A stretch of 42,663 bases of DNA from Paraburkholderia ginsengiterrae (lineage in GTDB: Bacteria > Pseudomonadota > Gammaproteobacteria > Burkholderiales > Burkholderiaceae): contig NZ_LXKA01000344.1 of the NCBI RefSeq assembly GCF_001645125.1, positions 1 to 42,663 on the forward strand, written 5' to 3'. Position 1 is the first letter of the stretch, and each line of letters opens with the position of its first letter. Both the position numbers and the translations under genes were made by a program. The notes under the pieces were generated by a model that was given only the letters and a program-made list of their open reading frames with translations, had not been told where the DNA came from and did not search any database. Of this stretch, positions 9,579-19,154 are shown in pieces.

Positions 9579-10016
9579 TCAACGCGCGCCCTGAATCCGC
9601 TGCACGCGCATACGCCCAGGCGGCTCGAAGTAAGTGCCGAAGCGCACAAGTCCGGCTTTCTTCAGATGGCACGTCATTTCGTAGCTCACCAGAACGCCAG
9701 GGTCGGGATTGTCGAGGTACTCCACGTCGATTGACCGGATGCGCGGCTCATACACCAGCAGAGTGGCCTCCATCTGCTGCTTGAGCAGATGTGCCGAAGC
9801 GGGTAGCGCCTTGTAGATGTTCGTGAGATCCGGGAGTCCATAATCGGGCAGATGTTTGAGTGCGCCCGCTCGTGAATTGAGAATGCGGCGTATGTTTTGC
9901 TGCACGCTCAGAATCTCGAGTGTCCTGTCGTCGTAGGCGTCTAGCGGCTCACCACCGATCTGGCCAAGCAGCTTATCGTACAGGGAAGGGCCAATGGGCA
10001 TCACGCGCTCCTTCAC
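9579..10016 (-). CDS. tssE: T6SS baseplate protein TssE (gp25-like)
   Basis: This 145-residue protein has the GPW/gp25 fold: SVQQNIRRILNSRAG, then LPDYGLPDLTN, then the EPRI motif (YEPRIRSIDVEYL) that defines TssE and phage gp25. TssE is part of the baseplate wedge with TssF and TssG and helps start sheath polymerisation. The start is GTG at 10016, overlapping the tssH stop by four bases, so it is probably translated by coupling; an in-frame ATG lies at 10001. It is the last gene of the minus-strand arm of the cluster. Its normal partners TssB and TssC are not in the window. Confidence 0.9.
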   Translation of the reverse strand: MKERVMPIGPSLYDKLLGQIGGEPLDAYDDRTLEILSVQQNIRRILNSRAGALKHLPDYGLPDLTNIYKALPASAHLLKQQMEATLLVYEPRIRSIDVEYLDNPDPGVLVSYEMTCHLKKAGLVRFGTYFEPPGRMRVQRIQGAR

Positions 10017-12748
10017 AGACTGGTCGCAACCAGATCGTCGGCGGTCGAGTTTGGAGGAGAGTCGATGTCTTGACGATCCAGGAAATCAATCACGAGACTT
10101 TCGTCAGCGGACATCGACAGCCTAATTTCAGCCGGCATCAAGTCCTTCGCCATGCGCGCCAGAAGCTCGCGCGATACGGCAGGAAGAATGCGCTGATTGA
10201 GAAACGCATCGACGTTGCGCGCACCAGATTCGCGTGCGAGGCAAAGCTGTGCGAGCGAGCCGGTCAACGCGTCATCGCAGGTGAGCACCACGTCGTAACG
10301 GCGGCGCAGACGTTCGGCGACCTTTTCGACCTTCAGACGCACGATCGACGCGAGTGCCGTAGCGTCGAGCGGGCGGTAGACGAGCGTCTGGAAGCGGGCC
10401 AGCAGCGCGGGCTGGAAATGCCCGACAAGCTGCGGACGGATGGCGTCGAGCAATTCGGCCTGCGAGATTGCCGGGTTCTCCGCCGTGGCTTCGTCGATCT
10501 GCATGCTGCCGAGATTGGACGTCATCAGGATCACGCAGTTGCGGAAGTCGATCTCACGACCTTCGCCGTCGCGCATCGTGCCGCGGTCGAACACCTGATA
10601 GAACATGTCGAGCACGTCCCGATGCGCTTTCTCCACTTCGTCGAGCAGCACCACGCTATAGGGTCGCTTCCGGACGGCTTCGGTGAGAACGCCGCCACGT
10701 CCGTACCCGACGTAACCGGGAGGCGAGCCCTTCAGTTGCGAAACGGTATGAGCCTCCTGATACTCCGACATGTTGATTGTCGTTAGAGCGGCTTCGCCGC
10801 CAAACAGCAGGTCCGCAAGCGCGAGCGCCGTTTCGGTCTTGCCCACTCCTGATGGTCCCGCCAGAAGGAATACACCCAGTGGCGAATGGTCGTTTTTCAG
10901 GCCTGCTTTCGCTGTGCGCAGGCTTTCGGCAAGCGCGGTCAGTGCGTCGTTCTGGGCGACTACGCGGGTGGCGAGATGGTATTCGAGCGCGAGCAGTCCG
11001 GTCAGCTCGTCTTCGAGCAGATTGCCAACCGGCACGCCGGTCCACTCGGCGACCACGCGGGCGATGGCCTGTGCGTCCACGTCGACAAAGACGAGCGGCG
11101 TTTTCCCTTGTGCGTCGATCACGGCCTGTCTGGCGATGGCAAGCGCGTTGTTGCCATGGTCCGGTGCGTCGCGATGCGAATTGCGGTGCGTGTGCACCGC
11201 GTTGACCAGTTCAAGCTCGTGTGTGTAGCGGTGATGTAGCGTATCCCGTTCCGTACGGGCATCGGAGAGCGCGGTTTGCAGGGCGTCATGCCGCTCCTGC
11301 AGACTTTGCGCACCCGCCCGCTGGTCCGCGGCGAGTGTGTTGATCTCCAGTTCGAGTGCGGCAACCGCGGCGTTCGCCCGCTGAAGTTCAGCCGGCGGCG
11401 ATTCCAGTCCCATGCGCACCCGCGCGGCCGCCGTGTCGATCAGATCGACCGCCTTGTCCGGCAACTGGCGGGCCGGGATATAGCGGCGTGACAGGTTGAC
11501 CGCTGCCGTGATGGCCTCATCGAGGATATGTACGCCGTGGTGTCTCGCATAGCGACTGGCCAATCCACGCACCATCAGGCAGGCGGTGTCGTCGTCGGGT
11601 TCTTCGACCTTGATTACCTGGAAGCGCCGCTCGAGCGCTGCGTCGCGCTCAAAATACTCCTTGTACTCGGACCAGGTGGTCGCGGCGATCGTCCGCAGTT
11701 CGCCGCGTGCGAGGGCCGGTTTCAGGAGGTTTGCCGCATCGGCGCCGCCGGTCGCGTTGCCCGCGCCGATCAGCGTATGCGCCTCATCGATGAAGAGCAG
11801 CACCGGTGCTTCCGACTGTTGTACTTCATCGATAACGTTTTTCAGGCGCTGCTCGAATTCGCCCTTCACACCGGCACCGGCTTGCAACAATCCCAGATCG
11901 AGCGTCAGGATGCGCACGTCGCGGATCACATTCGGCACCGAACCTTCAGCGACGCGAAGCGCCAGTCCTTCGACAAGCGCGGTTTTGCCCACGCCGGGCT
12001 CGCCAACGAGGATCGGATTATTCTTTCGGCGCCTCGCGAGGACGTCGACAACCTGCTGGATTTCGCGATCGCGCCCGAACACCGGATCGATCTCACCGCG
12101 CTGGGCCCTTGCCGTCAGATCGATGGTGAAGCGGGCCAAGGCCTCGCCCTCTGGTTGCCGCGCACGCGTGTGGGGCTGTGGTTTCGTCGATGTGCCCGGA
12201 TGCGCTTCGTTTTCGGCGCCGGTTGTCTCGCGGGGTGAATCGCTGTCAACTGCCGCAGCAGTGGTATTGTCATTGGCTTCGACCGAATGCCGGTCGATCA
12301 CTGCGGCAAGCCGTTGGATCTGGGCTGCATTGATGGATAGCAGCGGCCACGCGTCGGTGGCGCGCAGGCAATGGGGGGAGTCGGCCAGCGCCTGCAACAC
12401 ATGACTCGAGCGTATCGTCGGCATATTGCCGGCGACGGATGCAAGAAGCCATGCACCTTTCAGAATTTCAGCGAGCGAACGCGACAGAGCAGGCTTGCCA
12501 CGAAGTTCACGCGGCAACCGCTCGATCGATGCAAGAAGCGCGTCCCACACCGTGTCGATGTCAATTTCGTAATGCCGAAGGATCGCGGGAATATCACCGT
12601 CGCCTTGTTCAAGCAATTTCAGCAGCCAGTGTTCTGGCGTGATCTCGCCGTGCAGGCGGGCGTTGCACAGACTGGCGGCATTGGCGAGCGCGCTCGCGCA
12701 GTGCGGGTTGAGCTTGCGAAGCAGATGCGTGGAGTCGCGCAGCGTCAT
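10013..12748 (-). CDS. tssH: T6SS sheath-disassembly ATPase TssH (ClpV)
   Basis: This 911-residue AAA+ disaggregase has two ATPase modules. From the ATG at 12748: a Clp N-domain (1-160), a poorly conserved linker (165-205), Walker A GEPGVGKT (249-256), Walker B LLFIDEAH (317-324), a coiled middle domain (about 455-525), and a second Walker A GPSGVGKT (631-638). ClpV strips contracted TssB/TssC sheath for reuse. The reading frame is intact although the sheath genes are missing. ATG 12748 (MTLRDST) is preferred because ClpV proteins start near this helix; GTG 12757 and a further 5' extension to 12847 are possible. It lies downstream of the hcp remnant, behind a terminator. Confidence 0.92.
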   Translation of the reverse strand: MTLRDSTHLLRKLNPHCASALANAASLCNARLHGEITPEHWLLKLLEQGDGDIPAILRHYEIDIDTVWDALLASIERLPRELRGKPALSRSLAEILKGAWLLASVAGNMPTIRSSHVLQALADSPHCLRATDAWPLLSINAAQIQRLAAVIDRHSVEANDNTTAAAVDSDSPRETTGAENEAHPGTSTKPQPHTRARQPEGEALARFTIDLTARAQRGEIDPVFGRDREIQQVVDVLARRRKNNPILVGEPGVGKTALVEGLALRVAEGSVPNVIRDVRILTLDLGLLQAGAGVKGEFEQRLKNVIDEVQQSEAPVLLFIDEAHTLIGAGNATGGADAANLLKPALARGELRTIAATTWSEYKEYFERDAALERRFQVIKVEEPDDDTACLMVRGLASRYARHHGVHILDEAITAAVNLSRRYIPARQLPDKAVDLIDTAAARVRMGLESPPAELQRANAAVAALELEINTLAADQRAGAQSLQERHDALQTALSDARTERDTLHHRYTHELELVNAVHTHRNSHRDAPDHGNNALAIARQAVIDAQGKTPLVFVDVDAQAIARVVAEWTGVPVGNLLEDELTGLLALEYHLATRVVAQNDALTALAESLRTAKAGLKNDHSPLGVFLLAGPSGVGKTETALALADLLFGGEAALTTINMSEYQEAHTVSQLKGSPPGYVGYGRGGVLTEAVRKRPYSVVLLDEVEKAHRDVLDMFYQVFDRGTMRDGEGREIDFRNCVILMTSNLGSMQIDEATAENPAISQAELLDAIRPQLVGHFQPALLARFQTLVYRPLDATALASIVRLKVEKVAERLRRRYDVVLTCDDALTGSLAQLCLARESGARNVDAFLNQRILPAVSRELLARMAKDLMPAEIRLSMSADESLVIDFLDRQDIDSPPNSTADDLVATSL

Positions 12749-12797
12749 GATGGTCACGAAAAAGAGAGCCCGGGGCCGGACTGGCTCCGGCGTATGA

Positions 12798-12832
12798 ATA
12801 AAAAGCGCCAGCGCGCCTAGGGTGAGCTGGCG
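12798..12832 (-). terminator. Terminator between the hcp remnant and tssH
   Basis: On the minus strand a 7-bp stem (CGCCAGC with GCTGGCG, 826-832 and 806-812 of the 12-kb block) is followed by CTTTTTATT. A leaky terminator after hcp is expected, because Hcp is normally made in far larger amounts than ClpV. Its presence suggests the gene arrangement here is the ancestral one. Confidence 0.65.
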
Positions 12833-12897
12833 AAAGGACGCTGACACACGCGGAAATGCGGAGGATCAGAAGGCTTGCGCCAGCATCTCCGGGAGCC

Positions 12898-13173
12898 TTA
12901 CGAGCGCTCGTTCCAACTGTCGGCGTGGATGATGTTGCCGTCCTTGTAGGACCATGTGATCTTCTCGTAGCGCAGTTCGATCTCTTCGAGGTGGTTGTGC
13001 TTCTCAAATGCCGGATTCTTGATGTCGTGCATCTTCGGCTTGACCGCGACGACCTTCACATTGTCGAGCTTCGTGTTGAAGTACTCCTTTTCCTTGCCTG
13101 CGTCGTCGATCTTGTACCACCTGATCTCGATCGACTTCAGCGTCTGACCGCTCGTCACTGCCTTGTACAGGTA
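12898..13173 (-). pseudogene. hcp: 3' remnant of hcp (tssD), truncated at its 5' side
   Basis: The last 91 residues of a Hcp-type tube protein are clear: YLYKAVTSGQTLKSIEIRWY, then KEYFNTKLDNVKVVAV, a P/H/D loop, and the terminal strands ending in IIHADSWNERS. A full Hcp is about 160 residues, so the first 65-70 are missing. Upstream of Tyr at 13171-13173 the frame continues without a stop, but into sequence that is antisense to tssM. The frame could start at 13362 and make a 154-residue chimera, but its first 60 residues have no Hcp character. Hcp normally stacks into the tube inside the sheath; this copy cannot. Confidence 0.85.
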
Positions 13174-14070
13174 CCCGCGCAGGGCACGGGCCGTAACTCG
13201 CTGACGATCGACCCAACCTTCCTCACTGCGCTGAACACACTCATGCGCGTGTCGACCTCGCTCTTTCCATCGGGCGATGCGCGCGTGCGTTTCGAGCTGC
13301 GCGCAGTGCCGACGCCAGGCGTCACCGACATGAAGTTCGTGCTGTCGAGCCGGGAGCTGCACTACTTCAACCAGAAGGAAGAGTGGACGCCGTTCGTCTG
13401 GCCGGGCGACACACTGGAGAACATCTCGCGCGTCGAATGGCAGACCGAGGAAGCCGGACTACGATCGACCTTCGATACACAGGGCCGCTTCGGACTGATC
13501 CGGCTGCTCGAGCGGGCGAAGGTCACGCCGCAGGACAACGCACGCTATCTGCTTGCCTGGACGCCGGACCAGAGTCAGGGCATCCCGTTGAAGGTGCAAC
13601 TGCGCAGCGAAGCCGGCGCGGGTCCGCTCGACATGCTCGTCCTCCGGCATTTCTCCCTGCCGCAGCGGATTTTCCTGACCGGGTTGTCGCGGGGCGCGCA
13701 GCCGCAGCCGCTTGGCGGGCCGCCGCCGCTGCCGGCAGCAATGCTGGAATCCGCCAGGCTTGCGGAGGTGCCGTTTCCCTCCGGCTGGCCAGGTGGCGCC
13801 AGCCGGACCGGCAATGCTGACAGCGTCCCCCTGCATGCAGGCGCCGATCATGCAGCAGCGGCCAGTGCGCCAAAGCGGCCCCGGCCTGTTGCGCCCAAAG
13901 TCTCGGAAAGCGCCGCGAAGCCTGCGGCAAGCCAGGCGACACCGACGACAACGTGGCTGGAACCCAACGAGGGCCGACCGCTGTCTGAATCGAAACCACC
14001 CGAGACATTCCGGCTGGAATCCGCTTTGACCAGTGCCCATCGCCTGCTGGCCGATGCTTTTGCTTATTGA
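13174..14070 (+). pseudogene. tssM: 3' remnant of tssM (IcmF/VasK), 5' truncated
   Basis: About 298 residues remain from the C-terminus of the inner-membrane T6SS protein TssM. Recognisable parts are the helix TALNTLMRVSTSLFPSG, the strand region RFELRAVPTP, FVWPGD, and the C-terminal domain that binds TssJ (GRFGLIRLLERAKV). A Pro/Ala-rich tail of about 110 residues follows. A complete TssM has 1,100-1,300 residues with three membrane segments and a GTPase-like domain; all of that is gone. The open frame extends leftward to 12856, but that part is antisense to hcp. The real 5' boundary is about 13,174. The stop lies 9 bases before the tssA start. Confidence 0.85.
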
Positions 14071-14079
14071 GGTCAACGG

Positions 14080-15663
14080 GTGATTACTGATTTCGTCAAG
14101 AACCTGCTGGGCACAAACCCGGCGCCTGCGTTGCCCTCTGCAAGAACCGACGTCTGGTCATCGTGGCTCGTGCCATTTCCCGGCGAACTTCCCTGCGGGC
14201 GCGATCCCGGCTACGAGGATGCGTTCTTCGAGCTGAAGGACCAAGCCGCGAAGCTCACGGACATCGATGACGCCCTGATCGTGCGCTCGTGCGAGCAGCT
14301 GATCCGGGAGACCGGCAAGGATCTGCGCGTGGCCGGCTACTACACGTTCGCGCGATTGCGCCAGGACGGCCCGGCAGGCTTTGCGGACGGCGTGGAGTTG
14401 TGCGCGGCGCTGGTCGACCGCTTTGGTGTTGCGCTGCTGCCGGCACGTGCCGAAACGAAGAAGGGTGCGCTCGAAATACTCGCGACCACACGTATGGTCG
14501 ATCTGCTCGGAAGCCGGGGCGAGTTCGCGCCGGCAGACCTCGAGCGCACGATCGCAGCGCTGAACCTGCTCGTCGTGCGTACCAGCGAGTGGCCCGAAGC
14601 GGCGCGCCCGAATCTGCAACCGCTCGTCACGCGCTTTGACCGCAACGACAAGTCGCCGCACGGTGCCGGTCAGGAAGCGGACTCACCGCAGCCGACATCG
14701 CAGGGCGCCACGGGCAAAGCAGCCGGCACCGTGTCTTCAACGCGCGACCTGCTGGACCAGGCGCGCACGATGGCGACATGGCTGCGCGATCAGGAAAACG
14801 GCTACCTGCCGTCAGCGCGGCTCGTGCGTAGCGTACGCTGGGACACGCTGCATGAGGTTCCGCCCGCGGACGCTCAGTTCCGCACGCGGCTTGTCCCGCC
14901 ACGCACCGAATTGCGCCAGCAGATGACGCGGCTCGTATTGCAGAAGCATTGGCACGAACTGCTCGAGCGTGTCGAAGGCGCATTCATGGAAGGCGTGAAT
15001 CACCTATGGTTCGACCTGCAGTATTTCCAGCATGTCGCGCTCGACCATGTCGGCGCACCGTATAACGCCTGGCGCGAACTCCTGCGGGCGGACTTCGCGC
15101 TATTCCTTGAACGCCTGCCCGGAATCGAACGGCTCGCATTCAACGACGGTACGGCATTCGCTGACGACACGACGCTCGAATGGATCGCTCGGCACGCGGT
15201 CGTACGCGACATCGAGGCGGGCGAGACTGTCACGCCGCTACCAGTCTCGGCCGACAGTGCCAACGGTGCGTCCGGCGACTGGCCCGAGATCGAGGCGCAG
15301 GCGAGAGATCTTGCCGCAAGCCAGAGCCTCGAGGCCGCGTTCGCGTGGCTCGAAACGCTCCCTGGCCTCAGGACCGAACGCCAGCGCTATCTGCAGCGGT
15401 TTGTGATGGCGCGCCTTGCTGATTACGCCGGCCGCACCGATGCCGCGTTGCCGCTGCTGGCCGAACTTGACGCCGCCACACACGCCGTACCGCTCGCGCG
15501 TTGGGAGCCGGCGCTCGCTTTCGAAGTGAAGCACCAACTGATCAAGGCGCTCAAGACGATGAGCACCCGCAAGGAAGCGGACAAGCCCACGCTTGCACGC
15601 CGCATCGAGCAACTCCAGGGTGAGCTGACCGTGCTCGATCCCGCGCGAACCCTCGCGCTATAA
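14080..15663 (+). CDS. tssA: T6SS protein TssA (ImpA N-terminal domain)
   Basis: This 527-residue protein has the ImpA N-terminal domain at about 20-160 (FPGELPCGRDPGYEDAF ... DLRVAGYYTFARL), which marks TssA. A linker rich in T, G and S (200-230) and a helical C-terminal half (VasJ-like) follow. TssA primes and caps the growing sheath and contacts the baseplate. It starts with GTG at 14080, just after the tssM remnant. The spacing to tssF is 15 bases. The frame is intact. Confidence 0.88.
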   Translation: MITDFVKNLLGTNPAPALPSARTDVWSSWLVPFPGELPCGRDPGYEDAFFELKDQAAKLTDIDDALIVRSCEQLIRETGKDLRVAGYYTFARLRQDGPAGFADGVELCAALVDRFGVALLPARAETKKGALEILATTRMVDLLGSRGEFAPADLERTIAALNLLVVRTSEWPEAARPNLQPLVTRFDRNDKSPHGAGQEADSPQPTSQGATGKAAGTVSSTRDLLDQARTMATWLRDQENGYLPSARLVRSVRWDTLHEVPPADAQFRTRLVPPRTELRQQMTRLVLQKHWHELLERVEGAFMEGVNHLWFDLQYFQHVALDHVGAPYNAWRELLRADFALFLERLPGIERLAFNDGTAFADDTTLEWIARHAVVRDIEAGETVTPLPVSADSANGASGDWPEIEAQARDLAASQSLEAAFAWLETLPGLRTERQRYLQRFVMARLADYAGRTDAALPLLAELDAATHAVPLARWEPALAFEVKHQLIKALKTMSTRKEADKPTLARRIEQLQGELTVLDPARTLAL

Positions 15664-15678
15664 CAACAACGAGTTTCC

Positions 15679-17505
15679 ATGGACCAAGACGATTCAATCC
15701 TGCGCTACTACGAAGCTGAGATGCGCTATCTGCGGGAGTCCGGCAAAGAATTCGCGCGAGCGCATCCCGACCGCGCACGCATGCTCAACCTCGATCGCGT
15801 TGGCGATCGCGATCCATCCGTCGAACGCCTGTACGAAGGCTTCGCATTCCTGACGGGGCGTTTGCAGCAGAAGCTCGACGACGAACTGCCGGAACTGACC
15901 GAGGGGCTCGTAAGTCTGCTGTGGCCGCACTATCTGCGCATGATTCCGTCGCTGTCGATCGTGGAGCTGTTTCCGCTCGAGGAGAAGTTGCAGAAGACGG
16001 AAACGGTGCCCGCCGGGGTGCCGGTGCGCTCGGCGCCGCTCGTGACGCCACCGTCGGCAGGCATGGAAGGCACAATGCCCAAAACCGTGCAGTGCATCTA
16101 TCGCACGACTCAGGCCGTGGCGCTCCAGCCGGTGCGCCTGACGCATGCGGGACCGGACGTGCGTCACGACGGCCGGTCAGTGATCCGGCTGCACTTCGCG
16201 ATCGACCACTCGGCGCGACGTGAGGCCACCGATCTGTCGAGACTGCCCCTGTACCTGAACGCGGATCTGCCCACCGCATTCGCGATGCACCTCGCGCTCA
16301 CGCGCCACGTCGATTCGGTCGCATGGCGTATCCCCGAAGCGCACGAGGGCCGGGCTGCGGGCGAAGCACGGCCGCTTCCGGACGGGACGCTCGAAGCGGC
16401 GGGGTTTTCGACCGAGGAGCGCTTGTGGCCGAAGTCCGAAGCCGCCTTCTCGGGCTTTCAGCTGCTGCTCGAATACTTCACGTTCCGTGAGAAATTCCTG
16501 TTCGTCGATTTGTGTGGTCTGGACCTCGCAAAACTGCCGGCGAACGCCTTCAGCTTCGAACTGGAAATCGTGCTCAAACACAGTTATCCGTCCGATCAGC
16601 GCTTCACTGCGGAGAACGTGCGGCTTTTCTGTACGCCGGTCATCAATCTGTTTCCGCTCGACGCCGAGCAGGTTCAGGTCAATCACCACGAGACGGAATA
16701 CCGGGTCGTGCCCGCTGGCCACCAGGGCGAACACGTGGAGACCTACTCGGTCGACGCGGTCGCGTCGTTCGATCACGCGAGCGCACATCGCTACGAGTAC
16801 GTGCCGTTCGCCACGTTCCGGCATCGCGGCGGCATGCTTCGACACGAAGCACCGGAACGGTACTTTCACACGCGAGTACGTCAAGGGGTGACGGGCTTGC
16901 ACGATACGTGGCTCATATTCGGCGGGCACGCCTGGGAGAACATCGAAGATCTGCCGGAGGAAAGCCTGTCGCTACAGGTGACCGGCACCAATGGCCTGCT
17001 GCCTAGAAAGGGCCTGCGCGAAGCGAGCATCAACGAACTGGGCGAGAGCACGCCGAACGTTTCGGCCGTGCGCAATCTGGCGGCGCCGACGTTGCCGCTT
17101 TATCCCCCGACCGGCGACCGCTTCCAGTGGCGGGTGCTGTCGCACCTCGCGCCGAACTTCCTGTCGATGATGGACGCGGAAGTGCTGCGTGGCGCATTGG
17201 CGCTCTACGACTGGACCAATGACGAGCTGAACCGCCGGCGCCTCGCGGGCATCCTGCACGTGTCGGAGGAACTGCTTGAAGAAGTGTCGGGCGGTTCGGT
17301 CGAGCGGGGTGTGCTGATCGAGGTCACGCTCGACAGTCACGCATTCGCGGGCGAAGGCGATGTGATGCTGTTCGGTGAACTGCTGCACCGGTTCTTCGCG
17401 CTGTATGCGGAAATCAACCTGTTCACGAAGCTCGCGATCGTCAGCCTGCCGTCACAGCAGCGCACCGAATGGCCGCGCAGCAAGGCGCAGCGCTCCCCGC
17501 TATGA
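15679..17505 (+). CDS. tssF: T6SS baseplate protein TssF (VasA/ImpG)
   Basis: This 608-residue protein starts with ILRYYEAEMRYLRESGKEFA, the TssF signature, followed by RDPSVERLYEGFAFLTGRLQQKLDDELPE and SLLWPHYLRMIPSLSI. TssF forms the baseplate wedge as a TssF2-TssG heterotrimer and docks on TssK. Length is normal for the family. The stop overlaps the tssG ATG by four bases (ATGA at 17502-17505), indicating translational coupling. TssK, its contact to the membrane complex, is not in the window. Confidence 0.92.
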   Translation: MDQDDSILRYYEAEMRYLRESGKEFARAHPDRARMLNLDRVGDRDPSVERLYEGFAFLTGRLQQKLDDELPELTEGLVSLLWPHYLRMIPSLSIVELFPLEEKLQKTETVPAGVPVRSAPLVTPPSAGMEGTMPKTVQCIYRTTQAVALQPVRLTHAGPDVRHDGRSVIRLHFAIDHSARREATDLSRLPLYLNADLPTAFAMHLALTRHVDSVAWRIPEAHEGRAAGEARPLPDGTLEAAGFSTEERLWPKSEAAFSGFQLLLEYFTFREKFLFVDLCGLDLAKLPANAFSFELEIVLKHSYPSDQRFTAENVRLFCTPVINLFPLDAEQVQVNHHETEYRVVPAGHQGEHVETYSVDAVASFDHASAHRYEYVPFATFRHRGGMLRHEAPERYFHTRVRQGVTGLHDTWLIFGGHAWENIEDLPEESLSLQVTGTNGLLPRKGLREASINELGESTPNVSAVRNLAAPTLPLYPPTGDRFQWRVLSHLAPNFLSMMDAEVLRGALALYDWTNDELNRRRLAGILHVSEELLEEVSGGSVERGVLIEVTLDSHAFAGEGDVMLFGELLHRFFALYAEINLFTKLAIVSLPSQQRTEWPRSKAQRSPL

Positions 17506-18608
17506 AGCCGGCAGAACTACCCAACCTGGAGCCGCTGGTCGCGTCGCTGCTCGCCCGGGCGCCGCTGATGAACTTCATGCAGTTGTGCCGGCTGCTCGAA
17601 GTGCGCGTGCCTGAACATCCCGGCTTCGGTACACGGGACACGCCCGAACATGAACCCGTGAGGTTTCGCCCGCGAGCTCGCGTCGGCTTTCCGGCGGGTG
17701 AAATCGCGTCAGCGGAGTTCGACGAGGAGGGCCTCAGGTACGGACCCAACGCCCCACCGACGGTGCGCACGACGTTCATGGGGCTGTACGGCGTGGATGC
17801 GGCTATGCCCTCGTACATGGTCGACGACATCGTGCTGCGAACGGAAGGACACGAAGCTCTCGAAGCGTTCCTCGACCAGTTCAATCATCGGATCGTGACG
17901 CTGTTGTATCGCGCGTGGAAAAAATATCGCTATCCGATCGGCTTCCGTCCCGGCGGCACCGATGCGCATTCACGCAAGCTACTGTCTCTGGCAGGTTTCG
18001 GCTGGGGTGAGAAGCCTGCGCGAGTGGGGCTGCCCGACTCGCGCGTGCTTACGCTGCTGGGCCTGCTGATCCAGCGCACGCGCACGCCTGAAGGTCTTGC
18101 CGGTGTCGTCGCACTCGCCGCACCCGGCGTCGAGGTTCGTGTCGATGAGTTCTTTCCGACCCTCAAGGGCGCAGGCCAGCCGCAGCCACTCACGTCCAGA
18201 GGCGGTGTTGACAACACGCGAGGTGAAGGCAGGCGCCGTGGCCTTGGTGGTGGCTACGTGCTGGGCACGCGGCTTACCTATCGCAGCCGGGCAGCCCGCG
18301 TGACGTTGCGGCCCGCATCCGCCGAACAGGCTCACGACCTGTTGCCGGGCGCATGGCTGCATCGCGAGCTGACGGCCTTCATCCGCTTGTACGCCGGGAC
18401 GAAGGCCGACGTATTCCTGCGCATGGAAGTATCGTCGCGAATCGCACCCGCACCGAAAGTCGGTGTGGTGCACGAAGGTCCGGCGCCACGGCTTGCCTGG
18501 ACCACCGTGCTGCCTTCAGACGAAGAGCGTCTGATCACCATTCCGCTCGGTTCTTATGAAGCGTTTCCGGCGCCGGGACCGAACCCGTTCCTTGCACCTT
18601 CTGCCTGA
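17502..18608 (+). CDS. tssG: T6SS baseplate protein TssG (VasB/ImpH)
   Basis: This 368-residue protein has the TssG features: an N-terminal NFMQLCRLLE helix, VRFRPRARVGFPAGEI, FMGLYGVDAAMPSYM and FLDQFNHRIVTLLYRAWKKYRY. It partners TssF in the baseplate wedge. The ATG at 17502 overlaps the tssF stop; another in-frame ATG at 17469 would add 11 residues, and neither has a strong ribosome site. A Gly/Arg-rich insert (about residues 240-255) is a local oddity. The frame is intact. Confidence 0.9.
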   Translation: MKPAELPNLEPLVASLLARAPLMNFMQLCRLLEVRVPEHPGFGTRDTPEHEPVRFRPRARVGFPAGEIASAEFDEEGLRYGPNAPPTVRTTFMGLYGVDAAMPSYMVDDIVLRTEGHEALEAFLDQFNHRIVTLLYRAWKKYRYPIGFRPGGTDAHSRKLLSLAGFGWGEKPARVGLPDSRVLTLLGLLIQRTRTPEGLAGVVALAAPGVEVRVDEFFPTLKGAGQPQPLTSRGGVDNTRGEGRRRGLGGGYVLGTRLTYRSRAARVTLRPASAEQAHDLLPGAWLHRELTAFIRLYAGTKADVFLRMEVSSRIAPAPKVGVVHEGPAPRLAWTTVLPSDEERLITIPLGSYEAFPAPGPNPFLAPSA

Positions 18609-18623
18609 TTCTGGAGTACTACC

Positions 18624-19154
18624 ATGTTCGTCCGTTTAAGCGCGCCCCTTCTTGCCGCCAGTCTGCTGCTCAGTGCATGCGGCGCGTGGCAGTCCGTGTC
18701 GGATTCGACCGCGAGCGCGTATCACGCCGTCTTCTACAAACAGGTGAAGGTGCTGAACGTCGACCTGACCGCACGGGCCTCGCTCAACCCCGACGAAGCG
18801 AACCGCTCGACTTCGGTTGCCGTGCGCGTGTACCAGCTCAAGGATCGCAAGCTCTTCGACAAGGCGTCATATGACGATCTGCTAAAGAACGACAAGACCG
18901 TGCTCGCGCAGGATCTGCAGGACAGCATGGCGACAGTCGTCAATCCCGGCGCTTCCGCCAGCGTGACGCAGCCGATGCAGCCTGACGCGGAGTATGTGGG
19001 CATCGTCGCGTTCTACCGTAAGCCGGACGCGAACGGAACCTGGCGTCGAATAGTGCAGAAGAAGAGGCTCTCGGCGGATGCGCCACTGAAGCTGGAACTG
19101 GTCGACCGGGAACTCGTGGCAACGACAGATCCCGTCAAATCGAGGCCAGAATGA
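18624..19154 (+). CDS. tssJ: T6SS outer-membrane lipoprotein TssJ
   Basis: This 176-residue lipoprotein has a signal peptide ending in the lipobox LLSAC (Cys 19). The mature domain shows the TssJ beta-sandwich pattern: LTARASLNPDEANRSTSVAVRVYQLKD, FDKASYDDLL, and a final strand pair VGIVAFYRKPD ... RIVQKKRL. TssJ sits in the outer membrane and binds the C-terminus of TssM; here the matching C-terminal part of TssM survives only as a remnant. It starts 15 bases after tssG with a GGAG site (18613-18616) and ends the plus-strand arm. Confidence 0.92.
   Translation: MFVRLSAPLLAASLLLSACGAWQSVSDSTASAYHAVFYKQVKVLNVDLTARASLNPDEANRSTSVAVRVYQLKDRKLFDKASYDDLLKNDKTVLAQDLQDSMATVVNPGASASVTQPMQPDAEYVGIVAFYRKPDANGTWRRIVQKKRLSADAPLKLELVDRELVATTDPVKSRPE

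Follow-up and report, generated by a model that had tools for sequence, protein, structure and literature searches.

The 42,663-bp contig of Paraburkholderia ginsengiterrae analysed here (NZ_LXKA01000344.1, our C345; the window is the entire contig) carries a type VI secretion system (T6SS) locus in which the end of hcp, on the minus strand, directly abuts the end of tssM, on the plus strand. What remains fits a divergent T6SS cluster reduced to its two arms by one deletion, which took out a middle that measures about 17-20 kb in near relatives. The hcp base at this joint is also the break point of 14 further loci, and the commonest junction made with it, to codon 260 of tssF (the hcp-tssF260 joint), appears to have formed about eleven times across species. 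With little more than even confidence, we favour a recurrent sequence-specific break-and-join process as the agent that removed the T6SS middle. Genomes (G), contigs (C) and loci (L) bear our own labels; the window's genome, G000, is a draft assembly of 8.5 Mb in 393 contigs.

Break points shared by separate loci

We examined 17 loci with a truncated hcp, which came from a check of part of the 90 genomes that hcp or tssM matched. The sample holds one genome per species, and because the loci were found through matches to the window's hcp and tssF, joints of other kinds are under-counted. At 15 of the 17, the cut falls on the identical base, in the Tyr codon 71 of hcp. The partner on the right varies: tssF codon 260 in twelve loci (G004, G027, G032, G067, G074, G086, G087, G101, G132, G144, G149, G150), tssM in the window, tssG in G162, where up to 3 letters can be assigned to either side, and tssJ in G145. 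A second left site, at about codon 694 of tssH, is reused as well, with tssF codon 260 in G061, G082 and G148 and with tssF codon 341 in G019. Other fusions stand apart from these sites: the OmpA gene is joined to tssF at about codon 475 in G138 and G161, and tssH at about codon 79 is joined to tssF in G068. A further locus, L188 of G155, keeps the start of tssC and, about 1.2 kb away, the end of tssF.

Did the twelve hcp-tssF260 loci descend from one deletion? In a right-arm tree of 94 rows, in which some genomes appear twice, they fall into 11 separate groups, and in a left-arm tree 10 of 10 stand separately (both FastTree). The right arm redone in IQ-TREE with 35 rows (the 12 deletion loci and 23 others including the window) gives 11 changes, every one forced by starred branches. 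A single clade for all twelve is rejected by the approximately unbiased (AU) test (p 2.3e-4), and again when the two deeply split cluster types are tested separately (p 1.3e-34 and 4.3e-7). The rpoB tree of 30 genomes requires 11 Fitch changes for 12 tips, the mean for shuffled labels being 9.6.

Most of the deleted loci pair with an undeleted sister at a right-arm support of about 0.97 or more: G149 with G129, G032 with G137, G067 with G117, G074 with G125, G144 with L068 (whose sequence covers tssM onwards only), G132 with G092, and G087 with G063/G085. Support is weaker for G004 with G027 (0.58) and for G150 (0.37), and the right-arm sisters of G086 (the window, 0.90) and G101 (G068, 1.0) are both fused differently. 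The sequence beside the joint can be read in the same way, by looking for letters that a deleted locus shares with its undeleted sister and that seldom occur at the other deletion loci. Such lineage letters lie within 8 nt of the joint in six of the twelve (G004, G027, G087, G144, G149, G150), and on both of its sides within a few bases in G144, G150 and G087; in this test, the left-arm sisters of G144, G150, G101 and G004 differ from their right-arm sisters. We take the shared hcp base to reflect separate deletions, which points to a specific process over random decay.

The reverse history, in which the deletion came first and the middle was re-inserted later, is unsupported: across 17 loci, trees built from the middle (TssC, TssK, TssL and the Hcp N-terminus) are largely congruent with those of the right arm, with a shift of G117. 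In undeleted clusters, middle and arm identities correlate with r 0.99 (136 pairs), or 0.86 and 0.89 within the two types.

The fused locus in P. ginsengiterrae

The first-pass annotation of the window had proposed that the 3' codons of hcp adjoin those of tssM, between a left arm retaining tssE and tssH and a right arm retaining tssA, tssF, tssG and tssJ. Profile matches bear this out, and the joint lies at 13,173/13,174 (Table 1); the six whole genes are all open reading frames and all score above curated cut-offs. The hcp remnant, whose codons are numbered from the alignment with relatives' intact hcp, spans positions 80-167 of 167 in TIGR03344 and 65-129 of 129 in PF05638. The tssM remnant aligns with residues 977-1280 of an intact TssM and covers 1011-1168 of 1168 in TIGR03348, under the whole-protein cut-off, as expected of a fragment. 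The letters of the two genes are contiguous with no element between them; no insertion sequence is present at the joint, which leaves it without the mark of a deletion mediated by one. Two open frames cross the joint (12856-14070, plus; 12898-13362, minus), and each starts in the other gene's antisense.

Table 1. Features of the T6SS locus in the window
Feature	Position	Strand	Profile match
tssE, whole, left arm	9579..10016	minus	TIGR03357, E 3.9e-23
tssH (clpV), whole, left arm	10013..12847	minus	TIGR03345, 1116.7 bits (cut-off 885)
hcp (tssD) 3' remnant, codons 71-161, 91 codons + stop	12898..13173	minus	TIGR03344, E 1.6e-25
Joint, final hcp letters ...CAGGTA, initial tssM letters CCCGCG	13171..13176	none
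tssM 3' remnant, about codons 983-1280, 298 codons + stop	13174..14070	plus	IcmF_C, E 1.8e-20
tssA, whole, right arm	14080..15663	plus	TIGR03362, E 2.3e-105
tssF, whole, right arm	15679..17505	plus	TIGR03359, E 1e-171
tssF codon 260, TTT in the window, deletion site in twelve relatives	16456..16458	plus
tssG, whole, right arm	17469..18608	plus	TIGR03347, E 3.9e-68
tssJ, whole, right arm	18624..19154	plus	TIGR03352, E 6.1e-28

Alignment with intact relatives shows what once lay between the arms. In 36 genomes, both halves share a contig and an orientation, with 7.4-22.0 kb between them (median 17.8 kb), as is to be expected for a simple deletion; the count is of halves that are listed and share a contig, and for G030 it takes the first of two tssM copies. 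In the orientation of the window, the relatives' minus strand reads tssE (tssH) hcp OmpA-gene tssL tssK, and their plus strand tssB tssC vgrG cargo tssM tssA tssF tssG tssJ. Because they are collinear with both arms, one deletion without an inversion suffices, which supports the explanation first offered. The loss had been listed as the hcp start, tssB, tssC, tssK, tssL and most of tssM; this list is correct but short, as in the relatives the interval missing from the window also holds vgrG, a gene with an OmpA domain and cargo genes that fall into no Pfam family. The closest named relatives by tssA are P. haematera, P. polaris, P. domus and P. sartisoli. Set beside the undeleted clusters of three near relatives, the window has the same arms in the same order, with a protein identity of 70-98% in the common parts and with tssH missing in two of the three; unlike the window, these relatives retain 17-20 kb with tssK, tssL, the OmpA gene, tssB, tssC, vgrG, cargo and the 5' part of tssM.

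The relatives' clusters vary in their own right. The two shortest spacings belong to G024 and G097, both with losses of their own: tssK, tssL, tssB, tssC and vgrG are missing from the stretch in G024 (L046-L047), and G097 (L172-L173) has pieces of tssC and no tssB. In G030:C3 (L044-L045), tssM and a neighbouring gene are duplicated, with vgrG between the copies. Five otherwise intact clusters (G112, G063, G085, G131, G003) lack tssH (clpV), as does the deleted G087; the spacers between hcp and tssE in these clusters (L145, L147, L149, L152, L039, L175) are short and of differing lengths. Elsewhere in the genome, a clpV above cut-off is found in all five with the otherwise intact clusters, G087 being outside this search.

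The window's own joint has so far a single representative: among the matches listed from 144 other genomes of the genus, none spans both of its sides, and the furthest-reaching one extends 10 bases past it. Exact letters shared between its two sides amount to GGT in most relatives and GGTA at most.

Are the missing genes elsewhere in the genome? No tssB, tssC or tssK of this type is found on another contig, and hcp has three further copies, all on other contigs. Orthologues of tssB, tssC and tssK and the 5' part of tssM are on none of the 393 contigs, in a search that excluded tssL and the OmpA gene. The hcp-tssM interval of G092 measures 19.6 kb, and the 15.0 kb of it from the 5' part of tssM to the start of tssK have no matches in the assembly besides an orphan vgrG on C344 (86%) and, weakly, two short stretches on C112. 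With a relative's whole TssM as query, the only matches are the remnant in the window (74%) and two paralogues (27%). TssC of this type is absent from the window's genome and present in 60 of 145 genomes. The only tssB and tssK of G000 lie in two paralogous clusters, one on C112 that looks complete with 13 of 13 core genes and one on C361 with 12 of 13, vgrG not being seen in the stretch examined. Two orphan genes were also noted: an hcp at G000:C353:4279-4701 and the vgrG at G000:C344:24530-26274, whose DNA is 86% identical to the vgrG that a relative carries in the block missing here.

Compared with the 13 core genes tssA-tssM of a complete locus, the window keeps six whole (A, E, F, G, H, J) and two as remnants (D, M); tssB, tssC, tssI, tssK and tssL are absent at this locus. 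From the known core set, we infer that a T6SS cannot work from the locus alone, as it would be without sheath, spike, TssK and TssL. Over 1,820-1,824 codons of tssE, A, F, G and J (a set that omits tssH), the ratio of nonsynonymous to synonymous substitution rates (dN/dS) on the window branch is 0.117-0.135; six comparisons with sister branches give 0.094-0.131 for the latter, and all intervals of the difference include zero. As an upper bound, with the sister dN/dS entering as a point estimate, 2-8% of the window branch could have passed unconstrained. Judged from these rates, the deletion is apparently young.

Origin of the joints

We propose that an enzyme of the break-and-join type, be it a site-specific recombinase, a transposase or a topoisomerase, would cut at the conserved TA of hcp codon 71 and join the cut to a second site, most often the TA of tssF codon 260. 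In the lineage of the window, whose own codon 260 is TTT, the partner would instead be a site in tssM. The product would be a dead secretion locus, which may persist since selection is indifferent to losing this T6SS or favours it.

A TA recurs at the two sites joined most often. Codon 71 of hcp has TA in 30 of 30 pattern hits, the pattern itself demanding conserved letters beside the site. Codon 260 of tssF is TAC or TAT in 65 of the 72 distinct loci without the hcp-tssF260 joint (82 rows), and TTT or TTC in G063, G085 and G003. Exactly one TA is kept at the joint, and a two-base core would suit a recombinase of the serine type. In five relatives, hcp contains 11-14 TA dinucleotides and tssF 27-40; the probability that 10 further events would hit the same pair among about 12 x 30 TA pairs by chance is about 3e-26, a figure that shows non-uniform choice only. 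The use of the same sites in separate events is what site-specific recombination would produce, though six of the twelve loci may instead reflect transfer of short tracts.

Several observations weigh against a process of this kind. Two loci, G121 and G111, cut hcp about 33 nt away from the codon-71 base, both after the same letters; in G121, tssF at about codon 504 follows the break. The site broken in tssM reads GGGTA in one of six relatives and GGGTC or GGGTT in the other five, homologues of tssG and tssJ have no TA at the break, and the partner sites have little in common. In G032, G067, G074, G086, G101 and G132, no lineage letter falls among the 8 nt on either side of the joint. Among 52 plasmid records matched by a full-length hcp query, none has the codon-71 break. 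The window's joint is known from one genome, and from its assembly only. A recombinase gene was not recognised by Pfam among the proteins scanned for one in cargo and flanks, namely 9 middle proteins of unknown family from two relatives, 10 neighbours in the window and 10 neighbours in G086 and G132; the genomes were not searched for one.

Some related observations stand beside these points. After the hcp break in G111 (L245, 8599-8859 and beyond) come genes unlike T6SS genes. In E. coli, no hcp starting at codon 71 is present among the 60 listed of 1,375 genomes matched by the full-length query. Carriage of the joint by a virus or plasmid was considered and rejected: the joint and two half-site patterns had no match in viral_contigs, phages gave none, and no plasmid record covered 80% of the joint query. 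Three plasmids with an hcp match, two from Cupriavidus and one from Caballeronia, have hcp and the middle genes whole in the stretch read.

A more specific version of the mechanism is improbable in our view: that Paraburkholderia have repeatedly been exposed to a dedicated site-specific recombinase with a 2-bp TA core, which would cut fixed sites in hcp or tssH and in tssF, and perhaps belong to a mobile element profiting from T6SS-free hosts. The window would then represent a secondary site in tssM, used as its tssF lacks the TA core.

Could ordinary gene decay produce the same picture? If loss of the T6SS is selected or neutral, random deletions at short homologies might suffice, the hcp base being a hot spot that needs no special mechanism. 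Core T6SS deletions are known in other bacteria, and the 23 examined genomes with fused arms, the window among them, have various joints. However, the hcp-tssF260 sites share only 0-3 bp exactly in seven intact relatives (G092 not counted), and neither this joint nor the window's shows the long shared sequence of a deletion between repeats or microhomologies, though exact direct repeats of up to 13-17 bp (5 relatives) were available between the left and right blocks. In one relative, hcp and tssF offer 4,534 site pairs that share a 4-mer; all the same, about 11 events used a single pair. We consider decay alone unlikely.

Slightly less probable still is that the joint formed once or a few times and was then carried from species to species by homologous recombination acting on very short flanks, or that it is an old polymorphism with homogenised flanks. 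The twelve joints are identical at their core, the adjacent flanks are well conserved, and the six loci without a near lineage letter would suit a transfer, as would the TTG at tssF codon 262 that is frequent among deletion loci, even where the sister reads otherwise. The farther flanks, however, are mostly like those of undeleted relatives: over 50 tssF codons from codon 262, G144 matches L068 at 96.7% identity and any other deletion locus at 74% or less. Near letters also track the undeleted relatives, at +7 and -6 in G144 and G150 and at +4 in G004 and G027, and spread leaves the tssM, tssG and tssJ partners of the same hcp base unexplained.

An assembly misjoin in the window is very unlikely. 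The genome is a draft, the joint is read from one assembly, and tssL and the OmpA gene lay outside the genome-wide search; but most of the missing genes are on no other contig, and the same hcp break base occurs in other genomes within contigs of 2.9-7.0 Mb, in assemblies of 2-5 contigs (G150, G027, G074, G086, G132, G149).

It is equally hard to credit that the reduced locus is a working derivative in which TssE, TssH, the Hcp C-terminus, TssG and TssJ still serve. The window's dN/dS equals that of its sisters, and the retained hcp and the aligned part of tssF are free of stops in the twelve hcp-tssF loci; however, a young deletion gives equal dN/dS too, and the bound above leaves room for evolution after the loss. 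Decay has also gone further elsewhere: tssH is fragmented in G027 and absent from G087, and in G132 both tssH and tssF are frameshifted. Selection for a fusion protein as the cause of the exact joint is rejected, since in 3 of the 12 loci (G067, G144, G150) a TAG stands two codons ahead of the joint codon in the tssF frame, and the fusion is not conserved.

Losses of T6SS in other bacteria

Finally, we would like to compare these deletions with losses described in other species. In E. coli sequence type 410, T6SS deletions leave gene ends behind as they do here, and PMC10711316 describes the main joint as having arisen in a single early event within one clade (941/969 genomes); in contrast to that single event, one joint here appears to have formed about eleven times across species. 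The Aux3 module of V. cholerae (PMC7721734) resembles our loci in the precise, site-specific excision of T6SS genes. Aux3 is, however, an auxiliary effector module, lies between att sites and brings a tyrosine integrase of its own. Our loci have instead lost core structural genes, their breaks lie inside core genes, and no integrase was found in the parts scanned. The Ralstonia solanacearum complex has repeatedly lost the core cluster or its tssL-to-tssH part (30 genomes); the available portion of PMC11481896 describes no shared nucleotide break point, and its authors suggest homologous recombination. Our literature searches found no published report of a shared hcp break point or of this joint.

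When T6SS clusters disappear, this is usually attributed to decay once selection has changed. If a sequence-specific process did remove the middle of these clusters, then a loss repeated to the exact nucleotide in separate species would mean that T6SS loss has a mechanism. With about eleven deleted loci that have close undeleted relatives, what disarms these bacteria, and why, would be directly testable.
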